From assembly GCF_027942865.1 (NCBI RefSeq), contig NC_134516.1, forward strand, positions 25,379,322-25,443,321: 64,000 bases of DNA. The letters run 5' to 3'. Position numbers and translations under genes: made by a program. Positions 14,396 through 34,482 of this stretch are shown here, piece by piece; the stretch's first letter is position 1, and every line of letters begins with the position of its first letter. This DNA is from Odontesthes bonariensis (taxonomy: Eukaryota > Chordata > Actinopteri > Atheriniformes > Atherinopsidae). Below the pieces are notes generated by a model, which made no database searches, was not told the DNA's origin, and worked only from the letters and a program-made list of their open reading frames with translations.

Positions 14396-14698
14396 GGGTG
14401 TTTTTTTAACCAACAGGGGGCGCTGTTCCATCAAACTTCACATTAAGAACACTGAGATGTACAAGTAAACAGATACAATCCCACAGACAGCGACTTATTT
14501 TGAACTATTCAAGACCGGATATGTATATTGAACACCTGTTGCTTTCCTTAGCCTGGAAAATCTCTTGGAATTGGCTTTGTATGTATGACTTGGACTCATT
14601 TTCATTTTAATGAATTGGATTTGATTGCTTATGCACCTGTTGCTCATCTTTTCTAGAAAAAAAAAAAAAAAAAAAAATAAAAAAAAAAAAAAAAAAAA
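14396..14698 (+). mobile_element. Poly(A)-tailed retro-insert joined to 5S position +24
   Basis: About 260 bp of sequence foreign to the local spacer ends in a run of about 40 A (one T inside). It then enters a 5S gene exactly at CACGCCTGATCTCG. The poly(A) tail and same-strand junction indicate reverse transcription. It begins just after a 5S 3' end with a CAACAGGGGGCGCTG-type word. It could be a 5S-headed SINE or the 3' end of a 5'-truncated LINE. No protein is encoded. Confidence 0.7.
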
Positions 14699-14795
14699 CA
14701 CGCCTGATCTCGTCAGATCTCAGAAGCCAAGCAGAGTTGGGCCTGGTTAGTACTTGGATGGGAGACCGCCTGGGAATACCAGGTGCTGTAAGCCT
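14699..14795 (+). pseudogene. 5S rRNA copy F7, 3' part (from +24)
   Basis: Begins at CACGCCTGATCTCG immediately after the poly(A) tail and runs to GTAAGCC with a T4 terminator. The first 23 nt are absent, although the internal control region is kept. Confidence 0.82.
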
Positions 14796-15092
14796 TTTGG
14801 CTTCTCCAGGCGCATGCAGTTTGGCTACGTCAAATGCAAAACTAGTCCCTGTTTGACTTTTTGGAACTTGTCCTTTCTGAGGACAAAGTTGAATGTATGA
14901 GGATCAAAGCCAACAATGGCCTGGGACATCTCAGCAGATCCAGGATCAGCAACATGGAGACTGAGAGCCAAACAGAAACAGAGGTGTCTGCCAACCAATC
15001 AGCAGCAGCCCAAGCTGGTTAACTTCCTGGTGTCTGTGTGGCACACGGTGATGGTCAGATGTTACATGCAGGCCGCAGAGAGAAGAGAAAAA

Positions 15093-15211
15093 AGCTTACA
15101 GCACCTGGTATTCCCAAGCGGTCTCCCATCCAAGTACTAACCAGGCCCTACCCTGCTTGGCTTCCGAGATCGGACGAGATCGGGCGTGTTCAGGGCGGTG
15201 TGGCCGTAAGC
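15093..15211 (-). rRNA. 5S rRNA, near-canonical type, copy R6
   Basis: 119 nt with the AGGGTAGGGCC change shared with R4 and R7. T6 terminator present. Confidence 0.9.
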
Positions 15212-15569
15212 CACAGTCCCTGTGACAAATATATGTTATATGGGTGCTGGAACCATACGTTTCCCCTATTTTTACCAGAGAGCTGGCTTGAGAGGCTGCT
15301 GTTGAGCCTGCACGTTGACTTCCCTGATGTGATTGTTCTCTGCAGCTGAAAATGGGACTCTCAGATAACTTAGTGTCTGTCAAGCTCCTCTGTTCCCTGT
15401 GTGTAGTTTTGTGTCCGTTGTCATATAGAGAAACCAGGGAAGCTCAATCCCACGACATGCTCATAAACTGCGTCTTCTCTAAACAGTATAGTTCTATTTC
15501 AGAAGTCGGAATACAATAACAGATTCTGTTTCAGAATCTATAAAAAGCTGGTTTGGGATTCCATTGCTG

Positions 15570-15671
15570 GCTTACGGCCACACCACCCTGAACACGCCTG
15601 ATCTTGTCAGATCTCAGAAGCCAAGCAGAGTTGGGCCTGGTTAGTACTTGGATGGGAGACCGCCTGGGAAT
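15570..15671 (+). pseudogene. 5S rRNA copy F8, truncated by insertion
   Basis: The first 102 nt are present, up to CGCCTGGGAAT. Foreign sequence then begins. A matching 3' piece resumes at about 18190. Confidence 0.8.
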
Positions 15672-15862
15672 GGCTCATGACCCCCCCAAGTACATATTGC
15701 TCAACCCTGGGATCGATCGAAAATGATCAAAACGGATGGTGCCATCTGGTGGTCAAAATCCTGAAGTGTTATTTACGGAAATTGTTATGTACAAAGCCTG
15801 ATTTCCTTTCTAATTTCTTGAATTTCCCCATGGGGATCAATAAAGTATCTATCTATCTATCT
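15672..15862 (+). mobile_element. 5'-truncated LINE 3' end with (ATCT)n tail
   Basis: The block ends CCCCATGGGGATCAATAAAG followed by ATCT repeats, a tail style common in fish CR1/L2-group LINEs and the SINEs that share their tails. No coding part remains. It begins exactly where the 5S gene is broken. Confidence 0.55.
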
Positions 15863-16585
15863 ATTGAAATCCACTAGTCTGCTGAATGTTTTGTGTATTA
15901 TTTTCATAGTTTCAGTTGATGAGATTCATATAGTCAAGTGGAAACGTGTGTAACTGTTACATTTTTGGGCTGAATTAAGAAAGGGTGTAATGTATCAGTG
16001 AATTGATGTGTTATCTTACACTATCCCAACCCTTCTGAAACCCAAGCATACAGAGACTCCAAAATACTTGAAATACTTTTACAACTTTTAATTTTCATCC
16101 AGAATGTGTTTCATTTAAAAGGCAATGCATGAAAACACAAGTATACAAGATCTGTTTGGTTTAAAGCTCGCTCACCACGACAAGGTACAGATCTACGAGC
16201 GAGAACACGAGACAAGACGAGAGACAAACATGTACTACCATTTGCAATCATACAGTTAAACATGGAGCTGACAGACATACAAACATCACAAAGACATGAA
16301 GCTGACAAAGACAAACAAACAACACGCATGACAAAAACACAGATTATCTGAACATGAACAACCACTAAAGGGTATGTAAACTAATTGTGTTAGATCAGAA
16401 CTGATTACGGTTAAAATGATTGAGGTTAGATTGGCCTTGATACTGAACATAGCCCAGAACATGTTTGTATAAAAAGATAATAAAGTGCATTTTAACAGCA
16501 ACATAAATAAAAAAACAAACACAAGAACTGTAAAGTGCATTATTTGTAACTTTTGAACTATATAAATAATAGATTATACTTTGAA
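15863..16585. other. AT-rich insert sequence, no gene seen
   Basis: No domain-bearing frame or RNA gene recognised. It may be the 3' flank or 3' UTR of the minus-strand unit ending near 16,690. Confidence 0.35.
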
Positions 16586-16595
16586 ACACAAACAC

Positions 16596-16658
<63 letters not shown>
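16586..16658. repeat. (CA)n microsatellite
   Basis: About 73 bp of nearly pure CA dinucleotides, which also produces spurious frames on both strands. Confidence 0.97.
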
Positions 16659-16662
<4 letters not shown>

Positions 16663-16691
16663 AAGTTATTTACACAATTATTTACAGTTAT

Positions 16692-17223
16692 TTACACAGT
16701 TCCCCTCTTTTCCAACTCTGCATCCACCACACATTTAAAGTGTATGAAGCTGTCGTACACCACACTGTCAAACCCAGAGGTGGTGGATTTCCTAGTGGTT
16801 GGACAGTAGGAAAAAATTTTCTGGGTGCTTCCAGCCACTTTGTCCTTGGGAGGTGTGTACCTCTTCCGCTGTCCACCACAATTAGGCACGTGGCAAGCCC
16901 CACATGGCCGCAAGGACTTGTTCGGCATGAGTGCCGAGACTGTTGGTGCAGGAGGTACAAAGCTCTGGCTGCACGATGGCCCACGAAACAGGACGGAGGG
17001 AGCCTGTGGCTGTGAGGGGAGAACCAGCAGTATGGGTGCTGCCGACACAGGGGGTGGTCCATAGGTGGATGCAGCAGGCTTTGGCTGGAGGTGGGTGGAT
17101 GCAGCAGGCCCTGGCAGAATGGGGGTGGGCGCAGCAGGCTTTGGACGAGTGGAGGAGGACGACGCTGTGGGCTGAACGGGCCGTCTCACAGAAGGCACAG
17201 GCTCTGGCTCTTCAACAAATATT
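16692..17223 (-). CDS. Terminal exon of an unrecognised spliced gene (proline-rich, Cys-rich C terminus)
   Basis: An open frame runs on the minus strand from a good splice acceptor (TTATATTTCCAG before 17223) to a stop at 16692, about 176 codons. The N-terminal half is Pro/Ala/Ser-rich with imprecise repeats of a KPAAST-like word. The C-terminal part has CGACHVPNCGGQRKRYTPPK and then a compact SGFDSVVYDSFIHFKCVVD segment. The Cys/His spacing could bind zinc. I do not recognise the family. Similar small proteins accompany DNA transposons in fish, but that is only a suspicion. It may be the coding exon of the transcript whose first exon ends at 17947. Confidence 0.5.
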
Positions 17224-17650
17224 CTGGAAATATAAAATATACATGTAATGAGTATCGATATGACGTATGTGCTATTTGCTTTCCACAGCCAACAGGTGAA
17301 ACAAAGTGCTTATGATCTGGTACAGTAAAAAGTGAATAAATGAGTAAAACTAAAAGCAGATGAGGGCTTAAATACATTTTTAGAGACCCTACAGCCCTCA
17401 TAAAAGTAGTAACCAAAAACAGCCCATTCATTCATCACTTTGTTTGTAGCATACAAATCGTTGACATGTTTACACTTCTAAAGCATATTTCCACATCGAA
17501 TTTCAAATCCAAATTGTTGTAACACCATCTCTATGATCTTAAGAAGCGAGGTAGAGTGTCTGATCACGTTTTTAAAGTATTTCCAGGGATCGTCAGGTTA
17601 CATTACAGGTAGGTCATTCATTTTCACAGCAGGATGCTAATCGTTTTTGC

Positions 17651-17985
17651 CAGTTTTAAGAGAATCATTCAACACAGCAAAAGTGACATCTAGCTGGCTA
17701 AATGCACCACCGATTTACCAACAGAAAGAGCTAAGAATGAAGAATATTGAACTTAGTTGAGAGAAACGGGAGCGTCAAATGTGTACTGTAGGCTATCGCT
17801 GGATTCGCCGGTTCAGCTGTTAACAGTCGCGTTAATCTGCCGGTTTTCAAAGAAACATTCAACACAGCAAAAGTGACACCTAGCTGGCTAAATGCACCAC
17901 CAAATTCCAAACAGAAAGAGCTAAGAATGAAGAAAATTGAACTTACCTGAGGGAAACGAGAGCGTCAAATGTGTATCGCTAGATT
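17651..17985. repeat. Tandem duplication of a first-exon/splice-donor region
   Basis: Two copies of about 135 bp lie roughly 190 bp apart. They share an ATTCAACACAGCAAAAGTGA start and a CTAGCTGGCTAAATGCACCA word. The right copy keeps a perfect minus-strand splice donor CTCAG/GTAAGT at 17947/17946. The left copy has the equivalent site changed. Confidence 0.8.
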
Positions 17986-18030
17986 TGACAGTTACCGGCG
18001 ACCGCCATCTTGGTTTGAAATGCAGACGAC
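17947..18030 (-). other. Probable first exon of the minus-strand gene
   Basis: The exon would end at 17947 before a consensus GTAAGT donor. It contains AAGATGGCGG (18002-18011, minus strand), a YY1-type motif that also supplies an ATG. That ATG opens a frame of only nine codons, so the exon is likely mostly 5' UTR or carries a short upstream frame. The true 5' end is not defined. Confidence 0.45.
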
Positions 18031-18035
18031 CCCAG

Positions 18036-18174
18036 TGTGACGTCACACACATGCGTGAGCCTGCGTGAGCCTGTTCGCTCAATGATTGGTCTGTTGAGCG
18101 CTCAGCTCTGCTCAGCATTGCTCAACCATTGGCTGATCGCTGCTCAGCTCTGCTCAGCATTGCTCAACCATTGG
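18036..18174 (-). promoter_or_regulatory. CCAAT/CRE promoter of the minus-strand gene
   Basis: Upstream of the presumed first exon there is a consensus CRE, TGACGTCA (18038-18045). Beyond it are three CCAAT boxes on the minus strand (ATTGG at 18085-18089, 18128-18132 and 18170-18174). Two CCAAT boxes lie in a 33-bp word repeated with a 42-bp period. With the YY1-like motif just downstream this forms a TATA-less Pol II promoter. Confidence 0.55.
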
Positions 18175-18189
18175 ACGGCTGACGATCGC

Positions 18190-18238
18190 TTTAGTACTTG
18201 GAGGAGAATTCGCCTGGGAATACCAGGTGCTGTAAGCC
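18190..18238 (+). pseudogene. 5S rRNA 3' end resuming after the insert
   Basis: Matches the last 49 nt of the plus-strand 5S type with a few changes (GGAGGAGAATTCGCCTGGG) and the normal downstream spacer. About 30 bp overlap with the end of F8, like a long, diverged target duplication. Confidence 0.65.
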
Positions 18239-18536: not shown

Positions 18537-18655
18537 AGCTTACAGCACCTGGTATTCCCAAGCGGTCTCCCATCCAAGTACTAACCAGGCCCTACCCTGC
18601 TTGGCTTCCGAGATCGGACGAGATCGGGCGTGTTCAGGGCGGTGTGGCCGTAAGC
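18537..18655 (-). rRNA. 5S rRNA, near-canonical type, copy R7
   Basis: 119 nt, identical in type to R4 and R6 (AGGGTAGGGCC). T6 terminator and upstream TATA-like element present. Confidence 0.9.
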
Positions 18656-18790
18656 CACAGTCCCTGTGACAAATATATGTTATATGGGTGCTGGAACCAT
18701 ACGTTTCCCCTATTTTTACCAGAGAGCTGGCTTGAGAGGCTGCTGTTGAGCCTGCACGTTGACTTCCCTGATGTGATTGTTCTCTGCAGC

Positions 18791-19225
18791 TACTAACCAG
18801 GCCCCACTGCATGAAAAGAAGGATTTGTGGATGTATGTGGCCCCTTACATGTCCGCATACGTTGAGCCCCTGCATTTGCGGTGGTAAAAGTGAAAACTTG
18901 GCCCAAATTGTCGCAAATTGACCTGGCAACTGCTCCCCCATGCCCCCCTCCCCTCCCCTACTTAGGAGAGCCTTTAATATGTAAATGCCAGTGATCAGGT
19001 CAGGAGGTGCCACAGTCATTTTCAAGTGGGGTGGGGTGAGGTGAGGTGGGGGGTGGGCAGGCCTGTTTCTACACGTTCATCACCATCACCTCCAACTCCA
19101 GCCAAGTTTGTTGCTGTGTTGTCTTGAAAAAGAAGAGGTGCACGCTGTCTGCTGGTGACAGGTGATGCATATCTGGTTTTTTTTCTCCCAAACACCTCTT
19201 TTGTAATACCGCTTTTTGTGGGCAA
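18791..19225. other. Start of second insert, no gene seen
   Basis: The 5S spacer stops at TTCTCTGCAG and a short 5S scrap (TACTAACCAGGCCC) follows, then unrelated sequence with a G-rich stretch near 19,026-19,060. No domain or RNA gene recognised. Confidence 0.4.
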
Positions 19226-19480
19226 AATTCAAGGATTCAAGGATTCAAAGGTTTATTGTCATGTGTGCAGTTAGAAACGTGTTTCCCTGAACAAAGAAAT
19301 TATTTTCTTTGTTGCCCGCACTGGATGTCCAAATGTATAATAATAAAGATAAGATAAAGATAAAATAAGCATGCAACAGCAATATTCTAAAAGGTTTCTT
19401 AAATAAAATAGAAATAAAAATATATAAATCTGGCCTGTATACATAATGTGCAGTAGTGCGCTCAGTGTTTTATTGTGTAT
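19226..19480 (-). mobile_element. Probable LINE/SINE 3' end, minus strand
   Basis: On the minus strand the block ends with repeated TTGAATCC units preceded by a GACAATAAACC word. Short octamer tails of this kind are typical of fish L2/RTE-like retroposon ends. No coding remnant is seen. Confidence 0.4.
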
Positions 19481-19864
19481 GGCTTAATTCGGTGTCACAA
19501 TGGTCACAATATCGCCGAGGTCTTTTCTTTCTCCTTGCAGAGTCCATTTTTGTGTCAACACAGTGCAAATTGCCAGCTGTGGTCAGACAACATTAAATAG
19601 CAAAAGGACGGGAGGTTGTCTCGCGAGTATTCCGTGTAATGACGTATACGCATATGAGTGGTGGAGCTTAACGGCTCGCATAAGCTCTCGTTCAATCACG
19701 TATGAGAAACATTGTGTCGTGCAGTGTAAACAAAAAGTTTAAGGAGCAGATCTGGCGGCAGAAAGGCAGACAGAAATCACTGAAAACTGCCCTGGTATGC
19801 GGAATACAATGGGCTGGAAGACTACTAGCTTTCAACTCCCCAGCAACTCTCTGCGGGTCTACAG
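19481..19864 (+). other. Possible upstream exon of plus-strand gene
   Basis: A frame from 19702 runs to a possible donor (CTACAG/GTTTGT at 19864/19865). It does not stay open if joined to the next exon at 20004, so it is at best non-coding. The upstream boundary is unknown. Confidence 0.25.
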
Positions 19865-20003
19865 GTTTGTGTGTTTTTTTCTACTTGCACATGACCATTT
19901 GATTGTTTAATTTTAGTCTTGTTGACACTGTACAGCACTTGGGACAGTTCTCGCTGATTTTAAATGTGCTGTATATTAAACTTACTCACTCACTTGCTTA
20001 CAG

Positions 20004-20221
20004 GCAGATAAAATGAAAGTCCTGTTGAATGCTATGACCGGGATGTCTCGTATGGTGGCCAGCACTGTGGCTACGGTCGTGGAGAGGGTGCTGGAGGGAA
20101 TCGACCAGAGGTTCGCTAGGTTGGAGGCAAGATGGCCGTCGAGAATGGACTGAAGTTACATTCCAGAGAAGTTGAAGAGCGCGCCCCCAAGAGAAGGCGG
20201 ATACAGAATCCGAAATTCGCG
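20004..20221 (+). CDS. Exon with start codon of an unrecognised plus-strand gene
   Basis: The exon is bounded by an acceptor (CTTGCTTACAG) and a donor (GCG/GTAAGAG). An ATG at 20132 in a good context (CAAGATGG) opens 30 codons up to the donor, with a basic APKRRRIQNPKFA segment that resembles a nuclear localisation signal. A second, earlier ATG at 20012 gives a short frame ending at 20152. Reading continues in frame into the exon at 26228 beyond the L1-filled intron. Family unknown. Confidence 0.45.
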
Positions 20222-20308
20222 GTAAGAGTAGGTTATTGACTGTGGCTTTAGGCTAAACTCAACTTAATTGTGTCCATCACGTGAAAACCAGTGTGAGTTT
20301 CTTTATTT

Positions 20309-20325
20309 AAAAAAAATGAATTTCG
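20309..20325. repeat. L1 target-site duplication, left copy
   Basis: AAAAAAAATGAATTTCG, repeated at 26195-26211 after the L1 tail. Confidence 0.85.
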
Positions 20326-20348
20326 GACTTCCGGTGGAGCGAGCATCT

Positions 20349-20358
20349 AAGATGGCCG
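20349..20358 (+). promoter_or_regulatory. YY1-like motif near L1 5' end
   Basis: AAGATGGCCG starts 24 bp inside the element. Human L1 carries a YY1 site near its +13 position that sets the transcription start; a similar role here is inference. Confidence 0.45.
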
Positions 20359-20468
20359 TGTAGGGAATCCGCTACGAAGCCGTTCACCTTACCCCCTCCT
20401 TTATTTAAGGATTGACATATCCTAAACACTGAAAATAAGCGTGCGGAGAATTACAACTTGATATTAAT

Positions 20469-21287
20469 ATGCAACAAGTCCAGAAAACCCTTACACAGTA
20501 CGGTTTGAGAAGTATAACTCGACAGACTCAGGAAGGCACAGAGGAGCACATGGCGGCTACTACAGACCCACTGCAGATGGATACTGCAGCTGAGCTAACG
20601 AACATTAAGGCGCTGCTACAGAACATCGCTTCTAGTATGAGTGGGTTAAAGTCGGGCATGGATGCAGTTCAAACAGCGGTGGAGAAACTGGGAGCTCGGG
20701 TGGCTGAAGCTGAGACTCGAATTTCAGCCCTGGAAGATAAAGACCAAAGCTTGGGTGTCGCGGTGGACACGGCTACCAAAACCATCGCTCAACTTCAGGA
20801 AAAAGTAACTTACTTGGAAGACGCCGGCCGCCGTAATAATGTCCGTATAGTTGGAATATCAGAGGGCGCCGAAGGACGAGACATGCAAAAGTTTGTACAG
20901 ACATTTCTGGAGGAAGCATTGGATATCGAAATGGGTCCGGACTTCGAAATCGAGCGCGCCCATAGAACAGGTCAGCGGGGCAACAGAGACCGACATGTCC
21001 TGGTGCGTTTCCTGAGGTTTGGAGCCAGAGAAGCAGTGCTGCGGGCGGCCCGGGAGAAGAATCGTGTGGAATGGAGAGGCAAGCGGGTATCTTTTTACCA
21101 GGATCTCTCACAGGACATCATCCAGAAGCGCAAAAAGTTTGATGGAGTGAAGAAGCAGCTGCAGGAGAAGGGGCTTCGGTACTCCATGTTATACCCAGCC
21201 GTGCTGAGAGTTGTGGATGAAAATATCCGACACACCTTCGCTTCTCCAGAGGAGGTGAGAAGCTTTATTTCTGGGAGAGCCTCATGA
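20469..21287 (+). CDS. L1 ORF1 protein
   Basis: 272 codons. Residues about 30-120 form a coiled coil (heptad-rich, ending ALEDKDQSLG.. and IAQLQEKVTYLED). An RRM-like domain follows, starting at RRNNVRIVGISEG, then the C-terminal domain with IERAHRTG and HVLVRFLRF and a terminal EEVRSFI. These are the hallmarks of L1 ORF1p, a trimeric RNA-binding chaperone that coats the L1 transcript. Length is within the usual fish range. No stops or frame shifts. Confidence 0.92.
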   Translation: MQQVQKTLTQYGLRSITRQTQEGTEEHMAATTDPLQMDTAAELTNIKALLQNIASSMSGLKSGMDAVQTAVEKLGARVAEAETRISALEDKDQSLGVAVDTATKTIAQLQEKVTYLEDAGRRNNVRIVGISEGAEGRDMQKFVQTFLEEALDIEMGPDFEIERAHRTGQRGNRDRHVLVRFLRFGAREAVLRAAREKNRVEWRGKRVSFYQDLSQDIIQKRKKFDGVKKQLQEKGLRYSMLYPAVLRVVDENIRHTFASPEEVRSFISGRAS

Positions 21288-22068
21288 AGATCCCAACGCG
21301 ACACGGAGGACATTATTGATTACTGGAGATGTCGGATGAGCCGTCTTTAGGCTCCATCTAGGTGAACTATCACGAGAGTCATCCTCTGTTCTCCAGGTAC
21401 ATATTGGGATATAATATCAGATAAGATACAGTTATGTCTATATTGTTCGAGTATGCTTGTGTTCACCATATCTAAGGGTGTAAAGAAGTTAAATCATTGC
21501 AATATTGCTGCATCTGTTACATTTCTCTTTTAAAAAAAAAAAAAAAAAAAAAAAACTGCGTAATAACAGCAGGTATATTATTTTGGAGCAGACCGGACCT
21601 TTTTTTTCCGGATTGGAATATAACTTTAAGACATTAAATTCCTGCTCTTTATATGACTTAGGTTTTGGATTTATGTGGTTGCTTGTACAAAATACAGGCT
21701 TAGTTAAGTTCTGTAGCCTATAAGATAATAGGTGTGTGTATTTGACGCGTGTGGAGGAGGAGGAGGAGGGGGGGGGGTGTGTTTGGCGGGTCAGGACTTC
21801 GAGCTCCACGGACGCACTATTCTGTTGTTTTGGTTTGGGGGGTTATGGAGAACCGTTCTGTTCTTCTCAAGGTTCTCATATGTGTCTGGGTCTGTGTGTC
21901 TTTTTCTTTTCTTTTTTTCTTTTTATGTGTGTGTTTTGTATGTGCACCTATTTAACTCAGGGAGACATAAAATTCAGGCCATTTCTCACATGGTACCACT
22001 TTCACTGGCATTTATCTCAGAAATTGACAGGATGCTTGAGGGTAAAATAGCGGAAGGGTTATATTAAT
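21288..22068 (+). other. L1 inter-ORF region
   Basis: 781 bp without a conserved frame, long for an L1. It includes an A-tract (about 21,533-21,556) and a GGAGGA/G-run near 21,750-21,777. Overlapping open frames in it are low-complexity. Confidence 0.6.
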
Positions 22069-25000
22069 ATGGCAGATATGCTTAAGGTCATATCATGGAA
22101 TATTAAAGGGGCAAATCTTGCTATTAAAAGGAAGAAACTTCTTCTATATCTAAAACAAAAAAAAGTAGACATCTGCTTTTTGCAGGAGACTCATTTAAAT
22201 AATGAGGAATCAACTAAGTTACAAAGGGATTGGGTTGGTAAAATATTTTATAGTGCCTATTCATCAAGCCAACGAGGCGTCTGTATACTAATTCGTAAAA
22301 ATTTAAACATCACTATCCACAAACAACTCTCGGACGGGGAAGGTAGGTGGGTTGCTATCAGTGTAGACCTATGTGGCAGCAGATGCTCTCTTATCAATGT
22401 CTATGCACCAAATATAGACTCTCCAGATTTTTTTGTTGACATTTGCAATGTTGTGAAACAAATGGGGAATACATACGTTATTATTGGGGGAGATTTTAAT
22501 CAGGTAAGGGACCCGACCCTAGATAAGTCAAAGGTTGCCAATACAAGATTAGTACATAAATCCCAAGTAGCTATTGATGTTTTAGAAGAGGAGCTGGGTC
22601 TAGTTGACATTTGGAGGACTCTGCACCCCCAAGATAGGGAATACACCTTCTACTCAAACCCACATTCTTCATATTCACGGATAGACTATTTCCTAATATC
22701 CAAACAATTAGTGAGTACAACTATCACTACCTCAATTGGTAATATTGTATTATCAGACCACGCTCCAGTTGAAGTGGTGTTAGGTTTGGGGTCTTTATCT
22801 GATAACCCTAGAAGCCGTTGGAGACTCAACACCTCTCTACTTCAAAATGAAAAATCCTGTAATTTTATTAGAAAGGAAATTCTTGAGTATTGGGAATTTA
22901 ATGAAGGATCAACTACCAACCCAGGCCTAGAATGGGATGCATTCAAAGCCTGTTTGAGGGGCCGCTTAATTCAACACAGTTCTTATTTGAAAAAACAAAA
23001 TACTATGCGATTACTTGAATTGGAGAAAAAAATTAAAGATCTTGAAAAAATATATGCATCCCAATTAGATCCAGCGGTGTTTACACAGCTAAACAAAATG
23101 AAACTTGAATTAAACTGTATTCTACAGAAGAAGGCAGAGTATGCATTGTTTCAATGTAGACAAAAATACTACGAGCAAGGTGAAGCGGCAGGGAGATTTC
23201 TGGCCCAGAGAGTAAAACAACAGTATAATCGCACTTTAATAACTTCTGTGGAGAATGAAAAAGGGACCTTAATGACAGACAGGGGGGAGATCAATGAAAC
23301 ATTTAGGGTATTTTACCAAAAATTGTATTCATCCCAGGGTACAATTGACCAGGAGGATATAGATAAGTTCTTGTCACAGGCACACCTGCCGACCCTGTCC
23401 GAGGAAAAACAAAAAAAAATAGGGGGAGATGTCACATTAGAAGAGGTTCAGCAAGCTATTAAAAAAATGAGCTCTGGGAAGTCCCCTGGGGATGATGGAC
23501 TACCGACAGATTTTTATAAGGAATTTGTGGACCTAATAGCACCAAGGTTAGTGATAGTATTCAGGGATGCAATTGAAAGGGGCAAAATGCCAGAAAGTAT
23601 GCAATCGGCAGTAATTACTCTGATACATAAAAAAGGTAAGAATGCGCAGCAATGTGGAAGCTATCGCCCGGTGTCTCTAATTAATGTAGATGCAAAGATA
23701 TTGGCCAAGATATTAGCTATAAGGCTAGAGGCGCACCTGCCCAGTCTTATTCATCCAGACCAAGTTGGTTTTATTAGAGGAAGGTCATCTGCAGATAATG
23801 TTAGGAGATTACTTCATTTAATTTGGCAAGTAAGAAATAGCCCTGAAGCTGTGGTCGCTTTCTCTCTCGACGCTGAGAAGGCGTTTGATAGAGTGGAGTG
23901 GGGATATTTGTTTAGGACACTATTTAGGTTCGGATTAGGCTCCTCATTTATAAAATGGATTAGACTTCTATACTGTAACCCCAAGGCCTCAGTGTTAACA
24001 AATGGAAGAATGTCCCCACACTTCCTCCTTCACCGGGGCACAAGGCAGGGTTGTCCGCTGAGCCCCCTAATTTTTGCTTTAGCGTTGGAACCCTTAGCAG
24101 CTGCCATTAGAAATAACACAAATATCAAAGGTATCCAAGCTGGAAAGATGGAACACAAATTACTTTTGTATGCGGATGACATTTTGTTACTGACCACAAA
24201 TCCGGAAACAGCTGTCCCTCAGATTCTGTCTGTGATTGATACCTTCTCTCATATCTCAGGTTACAAAATAAATTGGGGAAAATCAGAAGCAATGCCCCTC
24301 TCTAGACTGTGTCCACCAAGTATTAGACAGAATTGGCAGTTTAAATGGCTTCCTTCAGGTCTAATGTATTTAGGGATAAAGCTTACACCAGGTTTAAAAG
24401 ATATAGTAACAGAAAACATTCTCCCCCTGCTTTTGAAAATCGAGAGCACCCTACAAAACTGGGCTAAATTAGGGTTATCTCTGCTGGGAAAAATAAACAT
24501 TCTTAAAATGATGGTTGTTCCACAGATTAACTATATCATACACCTACTACCCATGAGCTTCCCTCCTGCACTACTTAAAAAATTCAATACAGCAGTAGAT
24601 GCTTTTTTATGGGGAGGTAAAAGACCTCGTTTAAATCGAATTAAAATGTGTGCTGCAAAGGAGGACGGAGGTCTTAACCTGCCAAGAGTGGACTGGTACC
24701 ACTATGCCTTTTCTCTTAATCAGATGGCCAAAATATATACTGCAGAGGACCAAGCTCCGGGTTGGGTCTTGATTGAAAAAGAACTTACTGAGCCAATCCC
24801 GTTACAGGCTTTTATTTCACAAACTGAGGGAGAAATTCCATATAGAAACCCACTGTTGTTGTTTGCAAGGGAAACCTGGCAAGCATCACATCGTCTTATT
24901 AGACTAAACCCTTTTTTTACTAGAAGGTCATCCCTTTGGCATAACAAACTATTGAAAGTTGGAAAAAAAACTATCTATTGGAAGTCCTGGATTGAAGCAG

Positions 25001-26280: not shown

Positions 26281-26379
26281 GTAAGAATAAGTGAATGTTC
26301 TCCCAATATCTAGTTGAGTTGGACCCGATGTTACGTTAATGCAGTTTTTTTATTAACCATAGGCCTGTTGTTTTTACAG

Positions 26380-26477
26380 GCTACTGTCACCTCACAATAT
26401 GGATGTAACGAGTCGCTTGAAGGAGGCGGTGGCAAACAGTCCGAACTTCAGAGAGGCAGACGGGGACACTATCGAGG
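26380..26477 (+). CDS. Internal exon of plus-strand gene
   Basis: 98 nt between a TTGTTTTTACAG acceptor and a G/GTGAGC donor. It stays open in the continuing frame (HNMDVTSRLKEAVANSPNF and following acidic residues). Confidence 0.45.
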
Positions 26478-26567
26478 GTGAGCGGCGCTGACTTTTACCA
26501 CGGCTCTGGCACTGACACTTTTAAGCACTGGTCATTTTATTCATTCCTCTTGTTTGTTTGTTTTTAG

Positions 26568-26656
26568 CTGCGTGACGGACCTGTGTGCTGTGCTACAGGC
26601 GCGTCTTGAAGCCAACCCGAAATACTCACAGTCTCACAACAGAAGAGTGAAAGAGA
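26568..26656 (+). CDS. Internal exon of plus-strand gene, frame uncertain
   Basis: 89 nt between a TTTGTTTTTAG acceptor and an A/GTAAGA donor. One frame is open throughout (CVTDLCAVLQARLEANPKY and following basic residues). It is not the frame predicted from the preceding exon. Either the splice site differs, or an indel has occurred, or the gene is decaying. Confidence 0.38.
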
Positions 26657-26750
26657 GTAAGAACATATATGCTGTCAATATGACTTTCGTTACTTTATAG
26701 ACAAGTTGTCAATATGCTGTGCATGGATTATTTATTGGTTATTCCAACAG

Positions 26751-26976
26751 CTCCCAGAAGCCAGCCTCTGATCCAGGATGAGGACGTCTGACAACTCCCG
26801 CAGACCCTGCAGGGACCGGAGGAATGCGAAGAATGCGGATTCCAAACGGCGGCGTTTAGGCTTATTGTGTATATTGTAGGCTACAGCAGTGTATGTATAT
26901 AGTTTTCAATTCTTTATTATCGACATGGTTCTTATTACAATGTAAGCTATGTACATTGTGTGGTGTGGCAATAAAA
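26751..26976 (+). other. Last exon and poly(A) signal of plus-strand gene
   Basis: After a TTATTCCAACAG acceptor the frame reads TPRSQPLIQDEDV and stops near 26,791. An AATAAA at 26970-26975 followed by an A-run closes the unit. The short acidic terminus and nearby polyadenylation signal support a genuine Pol II transcript. Confidence 0.4.
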
Positions 26977-26989
26977 GCGCTTTAAAAAA

Positions 26990-27270
26990 AAAAAGTTTCC
27001 TTTTTCATTCTCAATAGATTCACGTCATTCATGCCTGCATTAGCCTAGTCATAGTGCAGCTTATAAGAATGACGTGAATATATGAAGTACACAAACATCC
27101 CAGGAATATTAGTAATCATAATCACAATTATTAATCATAATTGCTGAGTGATATGCCCATATAAAGTATGCATATATTAACCTTATTGGCCAATGGGCGG
27201 ACAGCTTTACAGGAGCTTTTTTATGTAATCACGTGCCTTTTTTGTCCAATACCAGCAAGGCCAGTGAGAG
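26990..27270. other. Intergenic AT-rich stretch
   Basis: No gene seen. It contains short TAAT/ATTATTAAT repeats (27,105-27,145). Confidence 0.35.
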
Positions 27271-27279
27271 GTCCAGGCA

Positions 27280-27330
27280 CTCTCACAGCGGGGTGCTAAT
27301 CGCTGGGCCATTAGCACCCCGCTGTGAGAG
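27280..27330. repeat. Perfect 21-bp inverted repeat with 9-bp loop
   Basis: Arms 27280-27300 and 27310-27330 are exact reverse complements (CTCTCACAGCGGGGTGCTAA and partner). GC content is high for its surroundings. It could form a cruciform or, if transcribed, a stable hairpin. Confidence 0.85.
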
Positions 27331-27482
27331 CCCGCCGTGAGTCGGGTTCGTTTCCGACGATTTTGTCGCTCAACAAACTTAAAGTTTGTCTGCCTGCAAG
27401 CGCCCAGGTGCGTCCGAAAATTAGGCAAATTCGCGGAAGTTCACTGCCGTCCACAGTGACACAAATCCCTCTTTTCGTGCAG

Positions 27483-27550
27483 TGCCCGACCCTGCTTGGC
27501 TTCCGAGATCAGACGAGATCGGGCGTGTTCAGGGCGGTGTGGCCGTAAGC
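27483..27550 (-). pseudogene. 5S rRNA copy R8, 5' part only
   Basis: The first 68 nt of a near-canonical minus-strand 5S gene with its normal upstream spacer. The 3' half, including box C, is replaced by the unrelated insert to its left. Confidence 0.8.
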
Positions 27551-27901: not shown

Positions 27902-27927
27902 GCTTAGGGCCACACCCCCATGATCAC
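27902..27927 (+). pseudogene. 5S rRNA copy F9, first ~26 nt before LINE
   Basis: GCTTAGGGCCACACC and a diverged continuation, with TATAAAA at the usual upstream distance. The gene is cut here by the 5S-targeting LINE. Confidence 0.7.
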
Positions 27928-28149
27928 TTGTGACAGTCGGTGCCCTGCAGCAATTTGATTGAGAGAGAGCGCATGCGTTTGAAAGAGTGAGTGAAAGTGT
28001 TTGGTGAGTGTTTTGACTGACCGTGTGTGAGTTAGATTTGTTTGTATAGTTGTGTGTTTTGTTTTATTCCCCCAGCAGCTTCGCTGTTCGGGGGAACGTC
28101 CTCGTTTCGTGTGTTTTTGTAACCGGACGGATAACATGGCAAACGAAAA

Positions 28150-29487
28150 ATGGAACGGAAAATGACAACGATACTGAACAATGGAGAATGGCTGACGGAT
28201 GACAGGCGAGGGAATGATGGTGGGAAAGAAAGCGAGATTAGGAGAGTAAATGAAGGTATGAATAAAGGAGAAAATGAAAATGGAGGAGAGAAAGTGAGAA
28301 ATAATGGAGAAGTGAATGCAGCAATTTGGAATGGAGAAAGCAGAAGTGCGAGTTTGAATGAAGAGAATATGAAGAATGACAGAGAAAATGTGAAAGATGG
28401 TGGCTTCAAAAAGGAGCTGACCGTGATTGTGGAGCTAGCAGGGCCAGACAAAGTGACTTTGATGGAGTTGCTGAGAGGCATAAAAGAAAGCTGCGGTATA
28501 GTTCTTGCCTGCAGAATGAAGGCAAAGAGCACATTTGAGATCACCATGCAGGACGGGAAAGGCAAGGCGCGCCTCATGGACGGCTTCTTATTGAAGGGAG
28601 TGCGGATTATGACAAAGGAAGTTCGAAGCAATGAACTGGTTGTATCCTTCCTTAACTTGCCCCCGTACATAACGGACGAGGAAATATGCCAAAAATTAGC
28701 AACTTGGGGGGTGAAGGCAACTTCGCCGATTAAAAGGAGGAAATGGCCAGGAACAGACGTGGCCGACGGCACGCGATTTTGCAAAGTTCAATTCAACGAC
28801 AAAGTGCAATCGCTGCCGTATTCGACCAAATTTGAAACCCTGGAGGGGGGAGAATACTTTCGCGTAATACATGACAGACAAGTTAAAGTATGCCGGCTAT
28901 GCATCCAGCCGGGACATATTCTAAGAGAATGTCCGGAATTCAAGTGCCATAAGTGCGCAAAACAGGGGCATTACGCACGAGAGTGCAATAATGGGACAGA
29001 CAAAGAGCAGCACAACGGAGAACAGGAGGAGCAGAGCGGAGGTGGAGGAGCGAGCCAGGAGATTGTTGGCGGAGAGGAGGAGCAGAACGGAGGTGGAGCA
29101 GTGAGCTTGGGGCTCGTTGGTGGAGAGGAGGTACAGAGCGGAGGTGGAGCAGAGAGCCTGGAGCTGGTTGACGGAGAGGAGGAGCAGAACGGAGGTGGAG
29201 CAATGAGCTTGGAGCTCGCTGGTGGAGAGGAGGAGCAGAGCGGATGTGAAGGAGAGAACCTGGAGCTCGTTGACGGAGAGGTGGAGCAGATGGAGGAGGG
29301 AGGCGAGCGAGACGGAGAGGAGGAGGACCTGACGGTGGTGGAGGAGACACCAACGCAGATGAGAGGGGAGAAGGAGAGAGATGGCCACAACGGCAGCGAG
29401 CAAGGAGAGGACAGAGGAGAGGAGAGGAGAGGAGAGCCATGGTGGAGAGAAGAAGACGGCAGACGAGTGGAGCAAGCAGAGGACTGA
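28150..29487 (+). CDS. LINE ORF1 protein with two CCHC zinc knuckles
   Basis: 445 codons. The first 80 residues are charged and low in complexity. An RRM-like stretch follows (TVIVELAGPDKVTLMELL, VVSFLNLPPYITDEEICQKL). Two knuckles lie near residues 245-280 (CRLCIQPGHILREC and CHKCAKQGHYAREC). The C-terminal third is built of about five acidic repeats of roughly 22 residues of the type GGEEEQNGGGA..LELV. ORF1p of this group binds element RNA. The frame ends in a GAGAGG-rich slippery tract, while another frame stays open from there to 29677, suggesting a one-base slip. Confidence 0.85.
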   Translation: MERKMTTILNNGEWLTDDRRGNDGGKESEIRRVNEGMNKGENENGGEKVRNNGEVNAAIWNGESRSASLNEENMKNDRENVKDGGFKKELTVIVELAGPDKVTLMELLRGIKESCGIVLACRMKAKSTFEITMQDGKGKARLMDGFLLKGVRIMTKEVRSNELVVSFLNLPPYITDEEICQKLATWGVKATSPIKRRKWPGTDVADGTRFCKVQFNDKVQSLPYSTKFETLEGGEYFRVIHDRQVKVCRLCIQPGHILRECPEFKCHKCAKQGHYARECNNGTDKEQHNGEQEEQSGGGGASQEIVGGEEEQNGGGAVSLGLVGGEEVQSGGGAESLELVDGEEEQNGGGAMSLELAGGEEEQSGCEGENLELVDGEVEQMEEGGERDGEEEDLTVVEETPTQMRGEKERDGHNGSEQGEDRGEERRGEPWWREEDGRRVEQAED

Positions 29488-29677
29488 GGAGGCAGCAGGG
29501 AGGGGGGTAGGGGGGTCAAGGGAGGACTTGCGGGCAGGGCAGGAATGTGAATGGGCAATGGGTGAAGTAACAGACAGCAGCGGGGATAACATGGAGGAGG
29601 TGATGGCAACTAGAAAAAGGCCTCTGGGGAAAAGAGAAGTGAAAAGGATTGGGAAGGTGAAAAAGAGTTTAAAATGA
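29381..29677 (+). other. Frame-shifted C-terminal continuation of LINE ORF1
   Basis: This frame stays open after ORF1 stops and ends in a basic KREVKRIGKVKKSLK tail. Its stop codon overlaps the ORF2 start as ATGA (29674-29677). Such an overlap fits translation of ORF2 by termination-reinitiation. That the ancestral ORF1 ran through here is inference. Confidence 0.45.
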
Positions 29678-32600
29678 AGAGAAAAATAATTGTGTATATA
29701 CTACTATTTATGTTAAAAATTACATCGTTTAATGTAAATGGGATGCGTGACAAAAACAGAAGGCAACAAGCCTGGCAGGTGTGTGACGGGGATATCATGT
29801 GTGTGCAAGAGACACATTGGGATGAGGAGTGCATGAGAGAAGTTAAGAAGGAATGGATGGGAGAAATGTATGTGAATAATAGTGGGGCAAAGTCCAGAGG
29901 GGTGGCTATTTTAGTGAAGAGGGGAGTAGTCGGCAATATAAAGAAGTGTATGGATGATGGGGAGGGGCGAGTGATAGGGATCACGTTCGATTATGTGGGG
30001 AAAGAATACAGACTAATAAATGTGTATGCACCAAATGAGGAGAAGGAGAGAAAGATCTTTTTTGAGGGAATAGGAGGAATGTGTGGGGAGAACTGCATGG
30101 TGGTGGGAGACTTTAACGTATGGTGTGGGAGACAGGATGCATCTGCGAGTGTGTGCTTTAAGAGCGACTCTACAAGAGGTGTGTTGAAAGAGGTAATGAG
30201 AGTGAACGGATTGATAGATGTATGGAGGGAGAGGAATCCAGAGAAGAGGGAGTTCACAAGGAGGCAAGTGGTGAGAGGGGTGTTAAAGCAGAGCCGGATA
30301 GATTTAGTGCTCAGTACGAGGGACATAGAGAATAAGATAGGTAAGATAGAATATAGGGTAACTGCACTGAGCGACCACATGATGGTAGGGTTTAGTTTAG
30401 GACAAGGCATAGAGAGGAGGGGGGGAGGAGTGTGGTGTTTGAATGGTGAGATGCTGAAAGAAAGAAAGTATAAGGAGAAAGTGAGAGAATGTATTGCAAG
30501 GAGAATAAATGAAAACATGTATGAGGATGACATTGGGAGGTGTTGGGAAAGCTTTAAAGAGGAGATAAAGGATCTGAGCATAGCTTATAGTAGAAACAGG
30601 AGTAGGGAAGAGAAGGAAAGAGAACAGAGGTTAAAGCGAGAATTAGACAGAGAAGCAGAGAGAGCAGATAGGGAAGCAGGACATGATTTAGCGAGGTATA
30701 TAGGAATTAAGGAGGAGCTGAAAGGGATAGAGCAGAAGAAGTGTATGGGAGCGATAGTTAGAAGCAGGGCCAGATACGCCATTGAGGGAGAGAAGTGCAC
30801 AGGATATTTTTTAGGGTTAGAGAAGACAAAGCAGAAGAGGAATTTCTTAGAACAGGTAGAAGGGAAGAAGGGAGAGAAGATAAAAGATTTTGTAGGGATA
30901 GCGGATAGAGTAGAAGAGTTTTATAGGGATTTATTTAGGAAAGAAGAGGTAGATGAGGAGAGCATAGGGCAGGTAATAGCAAAGGTGAGGGCTAGGCTAA
31001 CAGAGGAGGGCAGGGACATGTGTGAGGGTGAGATAGGGACGGGAGAAATAGAGAAAGCGATAGGGGGGTTAGGGAGGAATAAGAGTCCAGGGTTAGATGG
31101 GTTGACAGGGGAATTCTACAGAGAGTTTAGAGAGGATTTAGTGCCTGTGTTAGATAAACTATTTAAATGGATAGAAGAAAAGGGAGAGATGCCAGTTAGT
31201 ATGATGACAGGATTAGTTAGTATAATACACAAGAAAGGGGATAGGGACAGATTAGAAAACTACAGACCACTGAGCATGTTAAATGGAGATTATAAAGTAT
31301 TAGCACGGGTGCTAGCAAACAGGATCAAAAGAGTAATAGGGACGGTGGTGGGAAGCACACAGGCTTACAGCATACCAGGTAGGGACATAGCAGACACAAT
31401 AAGTAGCATCAGGGACACGATAGATTACATGAAGGGAGGAACAGGAGGGTTAGTGGTTAGTTTAGATCTGAACAAAGCATTTGACAGAGTAGACCACACA
31501 TACTTGTACAGGGTGTTAGAAAAGGTAGGGTTTGGGGAGAGGTTAGTGGGATGGATTAAGAGGTTATATGATAGGGCAGTTAGTTGTGTTAAAATAAATG
31601 GGATAATCACAGACACGTTTAGATTAGAGAGGTCAGTTAGGCAAGGGTGTCCGCTATCGGCTCTGCTGTACTCGATATCTGCAGAGCCTTTAGCGGCGAT
31701 GCTGGAGAACAACGACAGGATCAGAGGCATAGAGTTGCCAGGGGGGCACAGAAGCTTAGTTTATCAGTATGCAGATGACACGACAGTTACGGTTAGGGAC
31801 AGGGAGAGCGTAGCTGAGGTCTTAGAGAGTGTAGAGCTGTATGATAGGGCATCAGGGGCAAAATTGAACAAAGAAAAGTCAGAGGTCATGTATATAGGGG
31901 CAGGTAGAGCAGGGCAAACAGAACTAGGGTTGAAGGAGAAGAAGGATTATTTTAAAGTGTTAGGTGTAAACTTAGGGATAGAGGCCAGAGAAGGGAGAGA
32001 TATGCAGTATGAAGGGCTAATGAATAGCATCAAAAAAACACTGGAGTTTTGGAAGAAGAGAGGGCTTACACTGAGGGGGAAGGTGGTGGTGGTGAATGCG
32101 TTAATAGTGAGTAAGATTGGTTATGTGATGAATGTGTTGGATGTGCCTGAGAGAGTGTTGAAGGAGATGGAGAGAACGGTGAATGAGTTTTTATGGGATG
32201 GGAAAGGAGTGAGGATAGCTAGGGAGGTGTTGGAGAATGAGTACGAGGATGGTGGGTTAAAACTAATAAATCTAGAAAGGAAAAAGAAAGCAATGAGAGT
32301 GAAAATGATGGTAAGATATTAAAAAAATAAAAAAGATCAAGTGTGGAAGGTGTTTCTAGGGAGGGCAATAGATGAATGTGGTGGATGTGGTGGGAGTGCG
32401 GTGTACATGGATTTGAAGGAAGGTATGTTAAGCGGAGTGTCTGAGTTTCATAAGGAGGTGCTGGGAGCGTGGGGGGAGTTTGTGAAAAATGTGGAGTATG
32501 AATGTAAGAATGTGAGGCAGGTGTGGGAGCAGCCAGTGTTTTTAAACCCAAAAATCACGTGTGGGGGGAGCACAATATATAATAGGCTGATGTGGAGGGC

Positions 32601-33513
32601 AGGGATCAGGAAAGTGGGGGATATAGTGTATGAATATGTACCAGGATTTATGAGGGCACAGGTGATGGTGGACGAGGTGAGAGAAAGGGGGGATGAGATG
32701 GCGCTGAGAACGGCAGAAGGAGTATTGGGGAAAATAAGGGAAGGAATGCCGAGTGAATGGGTGAAAATGATTGAGGGTGAGGTGGGGGAAAATGAAAATG
32801 AAGCTGGAGAAATGGGAATGTATGTGGGGGAAGGGGAGGGGAGGATGAATGTAATGAGTGTGAAAGCAAGGGTGATATACAGAAGTCTGAGAAGGAAAGA
32901 AATAAAGAGACCGGCAGCGGAGAAAGTGTGGGAGAGGGTGATGGAGGACATGGATGAAAAAGGAATATGGAAAAACCTAAGGGTTAAATTTAACACCCCT
33001 GAATGCGAGAACTTTGATTTTATGTTGAGGCACAACAGGATTTTTAATATTTTATTAATAAGTAGATTTGATGTGAATGTAAAGAAAGAATGTGATGTGT
33101 GCAGTGTGGGGGTGGAAACGTGTATGCATGAGTTTGTTGAATGTGGGGAACTGGTAGAGTATTTTAAGAAAATGAGAAAATTCATAAATAGATGTTGGGA
33201 TAAAGAAGTGTGGGGGGAAACGGGCTGGAGAGAGGTGTGGTTGTTTGGAGTGAGTGGAAGGATGGAAGGGAAGAATGCAAATTTGATAAATTATGTTTTA
33301 AGTCACGCCAGGTATGCTGTTAAAATGAGGAGGGACATAGCACATTATGAAAGAAAGAAAGTGGAGGTGTGGAGTATTTTTAAAAGCATCACGAAAAGGG
33401 ACGTGCACAGGGTTTTAACACACTTGGGGGCAGAAGAGTTCACCGAGGGTTTTGTGGAGGGGAGCACGTTCATACAGATTGGGGAAGGGGATGTGAAGTT
33501 AGACTTTGGGTAG
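29674..33513 (+). CDS. LINE ORF2: APE endonuclease and reverse transcriptase, one internal stop
   Basis: An 882-codon open part (29674-32322) and a 390-codon part (32341-33513) lie in the same frame, separated by a single TAA at 32320-32322 in an A-rich tract. Endonuclease motifs are VQETHWDE (about residue 47), VVGDFNVW (about 145) and LSDHMMVG (about 230). Reverse transcriptase motifs include SPGLDGLTGEFYREF, NYRPLSMLNGDYKVLARVLA, SLDLNKAFDRVDHTYLY and RQGCPLSALLYSISAEPLA, with YADD starting at residue 699. The C-terminal part has a CDVCSVGVETCMHEFVECG knuckle, as in L1-like proteins. The stop lies after the polymerase domain. Confidence 0.88.
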
Positions 33514-33543
33514 AGCAAGGGTGGATTTTAATGTTTTTATTTA

Positions 33544-33870
33544 TTTCAATGGTTTGGTGAGGGGGCCTGTGGGCGAGAGGAGAAGGAGGAGACCTGCAGG
33601 CTGTCTCACTTGTTTTAGTTTTAGTTTTAGTTTTGTCAAGTTGTTTTTTCTGTTAATAGTTATAGTTTTATTTTTTAAATTTTATTTTTATTTCTATGGT
33701 TTGGTGAGGGGGCCTGTGGGCGAGAGGGAAGTGAAGAACCACGGGCTGTCTCACTAATTTTTTGTTCTGTCATAATGGATTTCTGTCTTTTGGTTCCATT
33801 TATATGGTTTCGTGAGAAGGTCTGTGGGATGGAAGAGAGGGAGAAGACCCAATGATAGCCTCACAAATTT
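33544..33870 (+). repeat. Triplicated motif in LINE 3' UTR
   Basis: Three imperfect copies start near 33544, 33690 and 33798. Each has a T-rich lead, ATGGTTTGGTGAGGG or a variant, CTGTGGG, a purine run and a closing CTCAC. GTGAG and CTCAC could pair in all three, including the most diverged third copy, which hints at a conserved RNA hairpin. Confidence 0.75.
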
Positions 33871-33991
33871 GTGTTTTTGCTTTGACTGTATTGTAAATAA
33901 TATATGTGTATATAAGGTTCAAATGAGTATACATGTAAATATGTGATTTGTTGTATGGTGAAATTTGTACTTAAAAAAAAAAAAAAAAAAA

Positions 33992-34086
33992 CCTGCACGA
34001 TCTCGTCCGATCTCGGAAGCTAAGCAGGGTCGGGCCTGGTTAGTACTTGGATGGGAGACCGCCTGGGAATACCAGGTGCTGTAAGC
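33992..34086 (+). pseudogene. 5S rRNA 3' part after LINE, canonical type
   Basis: Runs from about +20 to the end (GTAAGC then TTTTT). It reads GGAAGCTAAGCAGGGTCGGG, the standard vertebrate A-box region, unlike the local plus-strand variant. Its downstream sequence is also different from the local spacer. Confidence 0.78.
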
Positions 34087-34386
34087 TTTTTCAATTCCCT
34101 CTACAACCTGCAGGGGGTAATGCTGCTCAGTCAGTAAGAAACGTTCTCTTTTACTTTTCATTTAACAGTAGATCAGAACAACTTCCTCTCTTATACTGGG
34201 AACACACTAAATGAACACCTCCTGTCTGTGCTCAAGGCTTTCACGCTTGTCACTATCTTTGTCAAAAAACTGGATGCAGAGTTTACAAGTAGTTGCATTT
34301 TCAGTTACGTGGGTACTGAGTGATTCATGACATGTGACCTAATGGGCTTACAAACTTTATAAAAAAAAAAAAAAAAAAAAAAAAAA
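34087..34386 (+). mobile_element. Second poly(A)-tailed insert joined to 5S position +24
   Basis: About 275 bp of non-local sequence, starting right after a 5S 3' end with a CAACCTGCAGGGGG word, ends in about 26 A. It then enters a 5S gene at CACGCCTGATCTCG. This is the same junction as at 14698/14699. The body differs from the 14.4-kb insert beyond the first ~40 bp. Together with the preceding 5S head it could be a 5S-derived SINE. Confidence 0.65.
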
Positions 34387-34482
34387 CACGCCTGATCTCG
34401 TCAGATCTCAGAAGCCAAGCAGAGTCGGGCCTGGTTAGTACTTGGATGGGAGACCGCCTGGGAATACCAGGTGCTGTAAGCC
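34387..34482 (+). pseudogene. 5S rRNA copy F10, 3' part (from +24)
   Basis: Plus-strand variant type (AGAAGCCAAGCAGAG) from position 24 to GTAAGCC with a T4 run and the local spacer. The first 23 nt are cut off by the poly(A)-tailed insert. Confidence 0.82.

Follow-up and report, generated by a model that had tools for sequence, protein, structure and literature searches.

RNA-borne traffic of 5S-array sequence, probably by a 5S-specific LINE, in the genome of Odontesthes bonariensis

1. Introduction

R1 and R2 elements insert site-specifically in tandem 28S rRNA genes and belong to other LINE clades than the element considered here. For 5S rRNA genes, Mutsu, treated by Kojima and Fujiwara in 2004 and by Locati et al. 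in 2017, is reportedly a gene-specific non-LTR retrotransposon of zebrafish. Human L1 provides the reference for 3′ transduction: the inserted sequence consists of the element, its own tail, donor flank, and a second tail; the element lacks a polyadenylation signal; and in the orphan form the flank travels without the element. Zebrafish Mutsu is described as a LINE of about 5.5 kb with two ORFs that sits in 5S genes (PMC11202950, PMC3706591), and Keno as a U2 snRNA-specific LINE of the same species (PMC3706591).

Here, we analyze a stretch of 64,000 nucleotides from Odontesthes bonariensis (the window) in which three poly(A) runs abut 5S sequence. The window probably holds the traces of two events that involve a single enzyme family and in which sequence of a 5S array travelled as RNA. 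The explanation that we prefer as a whole, at a probability of about 0.7, combines (A) readthrough transduction of 5S-array flank by a LINE and (B) insertion of a tailed 5S-spacer RNA, both carried out by the machinery of one LINE family.

2. The Poly(A)/5S Junctions and the LINE

As the earlier note on this DNA had reported, three poly(A) runs abut 5S sequence in the sense direction and two share the same junction; all three were located in the letters, and their orientation is borne out (Table 1). With +1 set at the G of GCTTACGG, the junctions at 14698 and 34386 are identical, both reading CACGCCTGATCTCG, i.e., 5S position +24, while the junction at 33991 is irregular and reads CCTGCACGATCTCG. 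The sequences before the tails had been called unrelated; they are mutually different, but both non-LINE ones are spacers behind 5S genes of another array.

Table 1. Features of the two insertions and their 5S targets (window positions).
Feature	Position	Strand	Remark
Ends of A-runs	14698, 33991, 34386		sense-oriented 5S directly after each
Chimaeric 5S gene	14282..14400	+	of minor-array type up to and including position 60, of larger-array type at 118
Cargo of event B: spacer belonging to the + type 5S gene of the larger array (99%)	14401..14656	+
Poly(A) tail of event B	14657..14698	+	42 bases including one T
Event B target, a 5S gene starting at position 24	14699..14794	+
5S-like 5′ terminus (positions 1–26, altered) at LINE start	27902..27927	+	common to most copies
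5S-specific LINE, Mutsu-like	27928..33972	+
ORF1, open frame (stop to stop)	28135..29487	+	two CCHC motifs
ORF2, APE-type endonuclease and RT	29614..32322	+	ends at TAA 32320–32322
ORF2 frame continuing past TAA	32323..33513	+	weak zf-RVT match, under curated cut-off
First tail, A19	33973..33991	+	follows GTACTT immediately, the AATAAAAGA of the family being absent; joint irregular
3′ part of 5S gene, larger-array type	33992..34087	+	90/90 bp identical from 33998
Transduced cargo: spacer belonging to the − type 5S gene of the larger array (96%)	34088..34360	+
Second tail, A26	34361..34386	+
Target, a 5S gene of minor-array + type starting at position 24	34387..34482	+

The LINE before the 33991 tail has the APE-type endonuclease and RT in ORF2 and the CCHC motifs in ORF1 that mark a Mutsu-type element. 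It had been described as having complete endonuclease and RT domains; both are present, but an in-frame TAA lies downstream of the RT. Its best solved relatives are human L1 ORF2p chains. Membership in the Tx1 group is hinted at, and only hinted at, by the endonuclease scores (70 bits against 2v0r ‘LTX’, which carries a Tx1L loop, 59 against LR1, and 58 against the L1 endonuclease). The same reserve applies to the ORF2 identities, which are 33%, over about 860 aa, to a second LINE family of the genome that adjoins U2 genes (listed copies on C2:32–40 Mb) versus 29.6% to an L1-like LINE of the window. A Pfam search of four ORFs of the window (three in the 15672–18190 insert, one at 18543–19076) gave no match.

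The 5′ end at 27902 is the standard family end, as in 14 of 16 other fetched copies. At the 3′ end, the terminal AATAAAAGA, which holds the AATAAA signal, is present in 17/17 close copies (several of them segmental duplicates of one another) and absent from the window LINE. Among distant copies, AATAAA occurs in one of three, being absent from the distant-subfamily copies L104 and L105.

3. Genome-Wide Survey of Junctions

Junctions of the poly(A)-5S type were collected from the whole assembly. The pattern A9-N0..14-5S core returned 56 rows, corresponding to 14 distinct sites, with no match in the reversed control, and a relaxed +24 pattern (≤3 mismatches) returned 22 sites, again with none in the control; the junctions are, therefore, not due to chance. 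The 3′ UTR of the Mutsu-like LINE lies directly upstream in 20 of these 22 +24 junctions, and the remaining two are the window tails at 14698 and 34386. When poly(A) runs that end at 5S positions ~34–64 were sought across the genome by exact matching, there was no hit. Insertion thus occurs at one fixed 5S site, as for a Mutsu-type 5S-specific LINE. The earlier note had proposed reverse transcription into one preferred 5S site, a view that tails at scattered 5S positions would speak against; the +24 junctions across the genome support it, and within the tested positions, about 17–31 and 34–64, no such scatter is found.

A further proposal, that a wider guild of unrelated element families shares the +24 nick site, did not survive the survey. 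No two of the three upstream sequences are alike, as a guild would have it, but the 20 junctions with a single LINE family upstream contradict a guild of three families in this assembly, and the other two carry 5S pieces and spacers of the larger array, which leaves the idea hardly credible. A 5S-headed SINE (SINE3-like) was likewise rejected: the tailed end of the 14401..14656 spacer was found once in the genome rather than in many dispersed copies, and this spacer has no match to the LINE in a self-comparison of the window. The tailed spacer end before 34386 also occurs once in the genome.

4. Origin of the Tailed Spacers

A larger 5S array, 12.6 Mb off on the same contig, has a 1697-bp unit with two divergent 5S genes, whose native 3′ spacers are the sequences found before the 14698 and 34386 tails. 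The array has no A-run at the points matching either tail, from which we infer that both tailed spacers came through polyadenylated RNA. One row behind this comparison, L025, was disregarded because its frame was wrong. By eye, AATAAA is absent from both spacers shortly before the tails, which counts against the preferred explanation. The 5S sequence between the 33991 and 34386 tails is of larger-array type from about position 31 on, in a comparison that used 15 of 19 larger-array + gene cuts (the other four being empty) and 18 of 19 − gene cuts (the other one being an abnormal 5S). For the 34088..34360 spacer, 40 of 122 candidates were scored, and identity to all 39 other matches, among the matches listed, is 96%, whereas the adjoining 90 bp of 5S show no difference; the unit that served as donor was therefore atypical.

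These spacers might also owe their place to DNA-level exchange between the arrays, by recombination or conversion, or to an assembly error, and 5S arrays do recombine and are hard to assemble. However, tails of 42 and 26 bases are absent at the donor-array points, for which reason plain DNA recombination is rejected, and in two places the tails are joined exactly at the LINE's own site; explanations of this kind are very improbable.

5. Event A: A LINE with a Probable Transduced Flank

The tails at 33991 and 34386 most likely belong to one insertion made of the LINE, a tail, a 5S 3′ part with spacer, a second tail, and the +24 joint, i.e., a 3′ transduction. Donor flank lies between the LINE's own tail and the second tail; the standard 5′ end and the +24 joint (C24) after the second tail enclose both element and cargo; and the polyadenylation signal is missing from the element. 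The flanks of the 27902–34386 insertion overlap by CAC only (positions 24–26). In the mechanism that we propose, one 5S-specific (Mutsu-like) LINE family would nick 5S genes at +24 and prime reverse transcription there. Event A would have started from a LINE copy, its 3′ end lacking AATAAA, within a − type 5S gene of the larger array. The transcript would have continued beyond its own A-tract, through what remained of that 5S gene and some 270 nt of spacer, before being polyadenylated, and would then have been reverse-transcribed into a minor-array + type 5S gene, with LINE - A19 - 5S 3′ part - spacer - A26 - target 5S as the product. The earlier count of three independent events is accordingly probably too high: a single insertion is the likely source of two of the tails, so that duplication of one event, which the earlier note had weighed against itself, holds in part, the 14698 tail being separate.

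A matching arrangement (LINE tail, 5S 3′ part, and − type spacer, with no second tail) is found within the larger array, at C16:12.544 Mb (L074), where a 1276-aa open ORF2 frame lies upstream of the LINE end. It is not the exact donor: AATAAA is present, and the joint differs from that of the window LINE. An exact donor would lack AATAAA and show the joint CCTGCACGATC; the rest of the assembly yielded no such LINE, which may be lost, polymorphic, or unassembled. The LINE ends at C16:12.530 (5′) and 12.544 Mb (3′) may represent one interrupted LINE or two partial copies; the intervening 1.3 kb (L109) does not match the window LINE.

The same layout could have arisen in nested order, with a tailed larger-array 5S-spacer RNA inserted first (34386) and the LINE later into its 5S part (33991). 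Such an order needs about as many steps as a single insertion, and event B demonstrates that LINE-less insertions occur. Yet a fresh LINE should give a standard 3′ end and a +24 joint, whereas the inner joint is irregular and AATAAA is missing, while it is the outer joint that is standard; the larger-array type of the 5S between the tails also tells against nesting, which we consider unlikely.

6. Event B: A Tailed Spacer without a LINE

The 14698 tail probably marks a further event, one that involves no LINE sequence, and the 5S gene that lies upstream is chimaeric. A polyadenylated RNA that comprised 256 nt of larger-array spacer and, before them, the 3′ part of the + type 5S gene to which this spacer belongs would have been inserted at +24 by the machinery of event A's LINE family, its LINE part either truncated away (orphan transduction) or never there, and its 5′ end would have been sealed within shared 5S homology. 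No LINE sequence was seen at event B.

Event B, and perhaps the cargo of event A, may instead derive from a LINE-free readthrough transcript that was initiated at the 5S gene, polyadenylated in the spacer, and mobilised in trans by LINE proteins. The lack of LINE sequence at event B is in keeping with this, as are the TATA-like boxes that three of the four examined gene types have 31 bp upstream of the 5S gene, and so is the fact that no LINE was seen in a larger-array + type gene. A transcript starting at +1 predicts larger-array sequence from near the nick, but the 14282 5S is minor-type through position 60, an objection weakened in that truncation or later conversion could explain the minor-type stretch. 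Mobilisation in trans is a serious possibility, if somewhat short of an even chance.

7. Implications and Comparison with Known Systems

On the reading preferred here, RNA can carry parts of one rRNA gene array into another. More tentatively, and with the odds rather against than for it, we suggest that LINEs specific for 5S genes serve as couriers for the very genes they target, carrying tailed 5S and spacer readthrough RNA into 5S genes of another array, making chimaeric 5S genes, moving spacer, and offering a recurring route for mixing and spreading 5S types and array sequence. Unequal crossing-over and gene conversion are the usual explanations for exchange between 5S arrays; if the process is recurrent, LINE activity would open a direct route through RNA for such exchange, and the suggestion, said to have been made by Locati et al. 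in 2017, that 5S-specific retrotransposons influence 5S gene copy number would become testable. The window also advises caution, as several unlike tails at one site need not stand for several element families.

Like R1 and R2, the 5S LINE targets a tandem rRNA gene, but target and LINE clade differ. For Keno and for the U2-adjoining family of this genome, the target is U2 rather than 5S. By its description, Mutsu shares two ORFs and insertion in 5S genes with the window LINE; transduction of 5S-array flank is not mentioned in the passages on Mutsu of PMC11202950 and PMC3706591. A literature search, drawn mainly from papers outside subscription, turned up no site-specific LINE described as having transported flank of a target array. 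Transduction of 3′ flank is already known in human L1, whose layout events A and B share, including the missing polyadenylation signal (A) and the element-less flank (B). Unlike in human L1, the donor flank here comes, as does the target, from an array of the gene that the element itself targets, so that what is delivered into one array is sequence of another array of that gene.

A single LINE family at the +24 site

The array around the window's poly(A)/5S junctions consists of divergent pairs of + and - type 5S genes, about 893 bp per pair; numbering within 5S takes as +1 the G that begins the count in GCTTACGG. Two of the three junctions (14698 and 34386) join at C24, reading CACGCCTGATCTCG, and that at 33991 is irregular, reading CCTGCACGATCTCG.

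Features of the window and of its 5S array
Feature	Position	Description
tRNA genes	3956-8013	
A-run, event B (LINE-less insertion)	14657-14698	one T inside run; 5S in sense directly after
Insert	15672-18190	near position 102 of a + type 5S gene
Unit with inverted repeats	18792-27483	breaks - type 5S gene near positions 62-67
L1-like ORF1 in this unit	20439-21287	Transposase_22 domain
L1-like ORF2 in this unit	22051-25839	open
5S-specific LINE with both tails	27902-34386	5S-like start at 27902-27927
TAA in LINE ORF2	32320-32322	
LINE 3' UTR repeats	33526-33755	two ~85-bp copies, 86% alike
A-run, first LINE tail	33973-33991	5S in sense directly after
A-run, second tail	34361-34386	5S in sense directly after
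tRNA tandem arrays beside 5S array	36176-63746	alternating genes, both strands, about 1.1 or 2.2 kb apart

The earlier note had taken these junctions to suggest a guild of several element families sharing one nick site; the genome-wide junction collection that it proposed, run here on the assembly (945 Mb, 187 contigs; window at G000:C16:25379322-25443321), shows a single family instead. A pattern independent of element family (nine A, then 0-14 bases, then the 5S core) yielded 14 distinct sites genome-wide and a relaxed +24 pattern 22, with none in the reversed control of the former or the control of the latter. When compared against 33 genomic matches to the 3' UTR of the window LINE, 12/14 and 20/22 sites, respectively, had this UTR directly upstream, the exceptions in both sets being the window's same two spacer tails. 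Segmental duplicates are likely among the sites (e.g., C16:28.6-28.8 and 31.4-31.6 Mb); since several resemble such duplicates, independent events number fewer than 22. An exact pattern found no tails at 5S positions about 34-64 genome-wide.

Origin of the tailed spacers

The 14657 tail is preceded by 256 bp that correspond to the spacer 3' of the + gene in the larger 5S array (1697-bp unit, C16:12.54-12.77 Mb; 99%, positions 1-254), and the 34361 tail by 273 bp that correspond to this array's spacer 3' of the - gene (96%). Among the matches listed (best 40 of 739 and best 40 of 122 candidates, respectively), all outside the window lie in this array. Its sequence continues past both tail points without an A-run, so both tails were acquired at the RNA stage. 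A genome-wide search found each tailed spacer end once.

In event B, the 5S gene at 14282 is of minor-array (the window's) type up to position 60 and of larger-array type at position 118, and the right flank begins at position 24. Thus, at least 37 bp of target stand on both sides, with one base difference over positions 24-60, so the 5' end was either sealed inside shared 5S homology or later corrected by conversion. The inserted RNA may have been a LINE transcript truncated to its 3' end, or a 5S readthrough RNA free of LINE sequence.

One insertion or two

Upstream, the window LINE borders minor-array sequence and has the standard 5' end; downstream, its second tail passes through the standard +24 joint into 5S of the minor array. 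The stretch separating the two tails, made up of 96 bp of 5S and 273 bp of spacer, is of larger-array type. In 17/17 close copies examined, ...GATAATAAAAGA precedes the poly(A); the window LINE ends in GTACTT-A19 without it, and AATAAA is present in one of three distant copies and absent from the other two. A LINE copy would have lost its polyadenylation signal, its transcript would have run on through 5S gene and spacer at the donor locus, and this RNA would have gained a second tail, which is the pattern of 3' transduction. We favor a single insertion over two by about 3 to 1, a judgement rather than a computed value. The less probable nested order requires about as many steps, and the 4% divergence of the spacer beside an unchanged 90-bp 5S part speaks against the single event; given this adjacency, a single insertion would imply an atypical donor unit. 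A LINE end of matching arrangement at C16:12.544 Mb (L074) is ruled out as the exact donor because it has AATAAA and a different joint.

The 5S-specific LINE and its relatives

A 5S-like start ending CCCCCATGATCAC, altered relative to 5S, is found in 15/17 copies whose 5' end is seen (the window's included; others L087-L102); L092 and L102 have GCCCTGATCAC and GCCCTGAACAC instead. L087 is flanked by larger-array sequence, yet its base at position 12 is C; usable larger-array genes examined have T there. Together with the common terminus, this C indicates that the beginning of the 5S gene is probably part of the LINE RNA. The altered terminus suggests that transcription starts in the host 5S gene, perhaps from a TATA-like box found 31 bp upstream of the 5S start in 3/4 gene types.

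ORF1 has two CCHC motifs; in ORF2, an endonuclease of the APE type is accompanied by an RT carrying YADD. The window's ORF2 contains a stop; other copies have stop-free frames, e.g., of 1299 aa (n = 3) and 1307 aa (n = 1), and one at 12.54 Mb, within the larger array, is open over 1276 aa. Human L1 ORF2p chains are the best solved relatives. Repeat number in the 3' UTR seems copy-variable, as locus L003 matches it in several overlapping pieces.

The next family in the genome (33% ORF2 identity) adjoins U2 snRNA genes, as does Keno in zebrafish (PMC3706591). It accounts for 26/53 matches listed, all 26 on C2:32-40 Mb and 22 listed with a 1179-aa frame. Both copies inspected, L106 (C2:39.77 Mb) and L107 (C2:35.26 Mb), adjoin U2 sequence, with U2 and 5S together within 1.4 kb, and U5 too in L107.

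Other elements in the array

Terminal inverted repeats of ~25 bp (CACTGCATGAAAAG... / ...CTTTTCGTGCAGTG) bound the unit at 18792-27483, which encloses an L1-like LINE. The insert at 15672-18190 adjoins ATTCCCAGGCGGTC, the published target sequence of Dada-5S (PMC8869645). Three of the insert's ORFs gave no Pfam match.

Comparison with known systems

Locati et al. 2017 reportedly described several Mutsu subfamilies that differ in their 5S targets, said to have been proposed to affect 5S copy number. Transduction by L1 is well known. Zebrafish has 5S-specific Mutsu LINEs (PMC11202950, PMC3706591), and about 25% of L1 insertions carry a transduction (PMC13009371). Among the papers listed by literature searches on the theme, there was no report of a site-specific LINE moving target-array flank into another target array.
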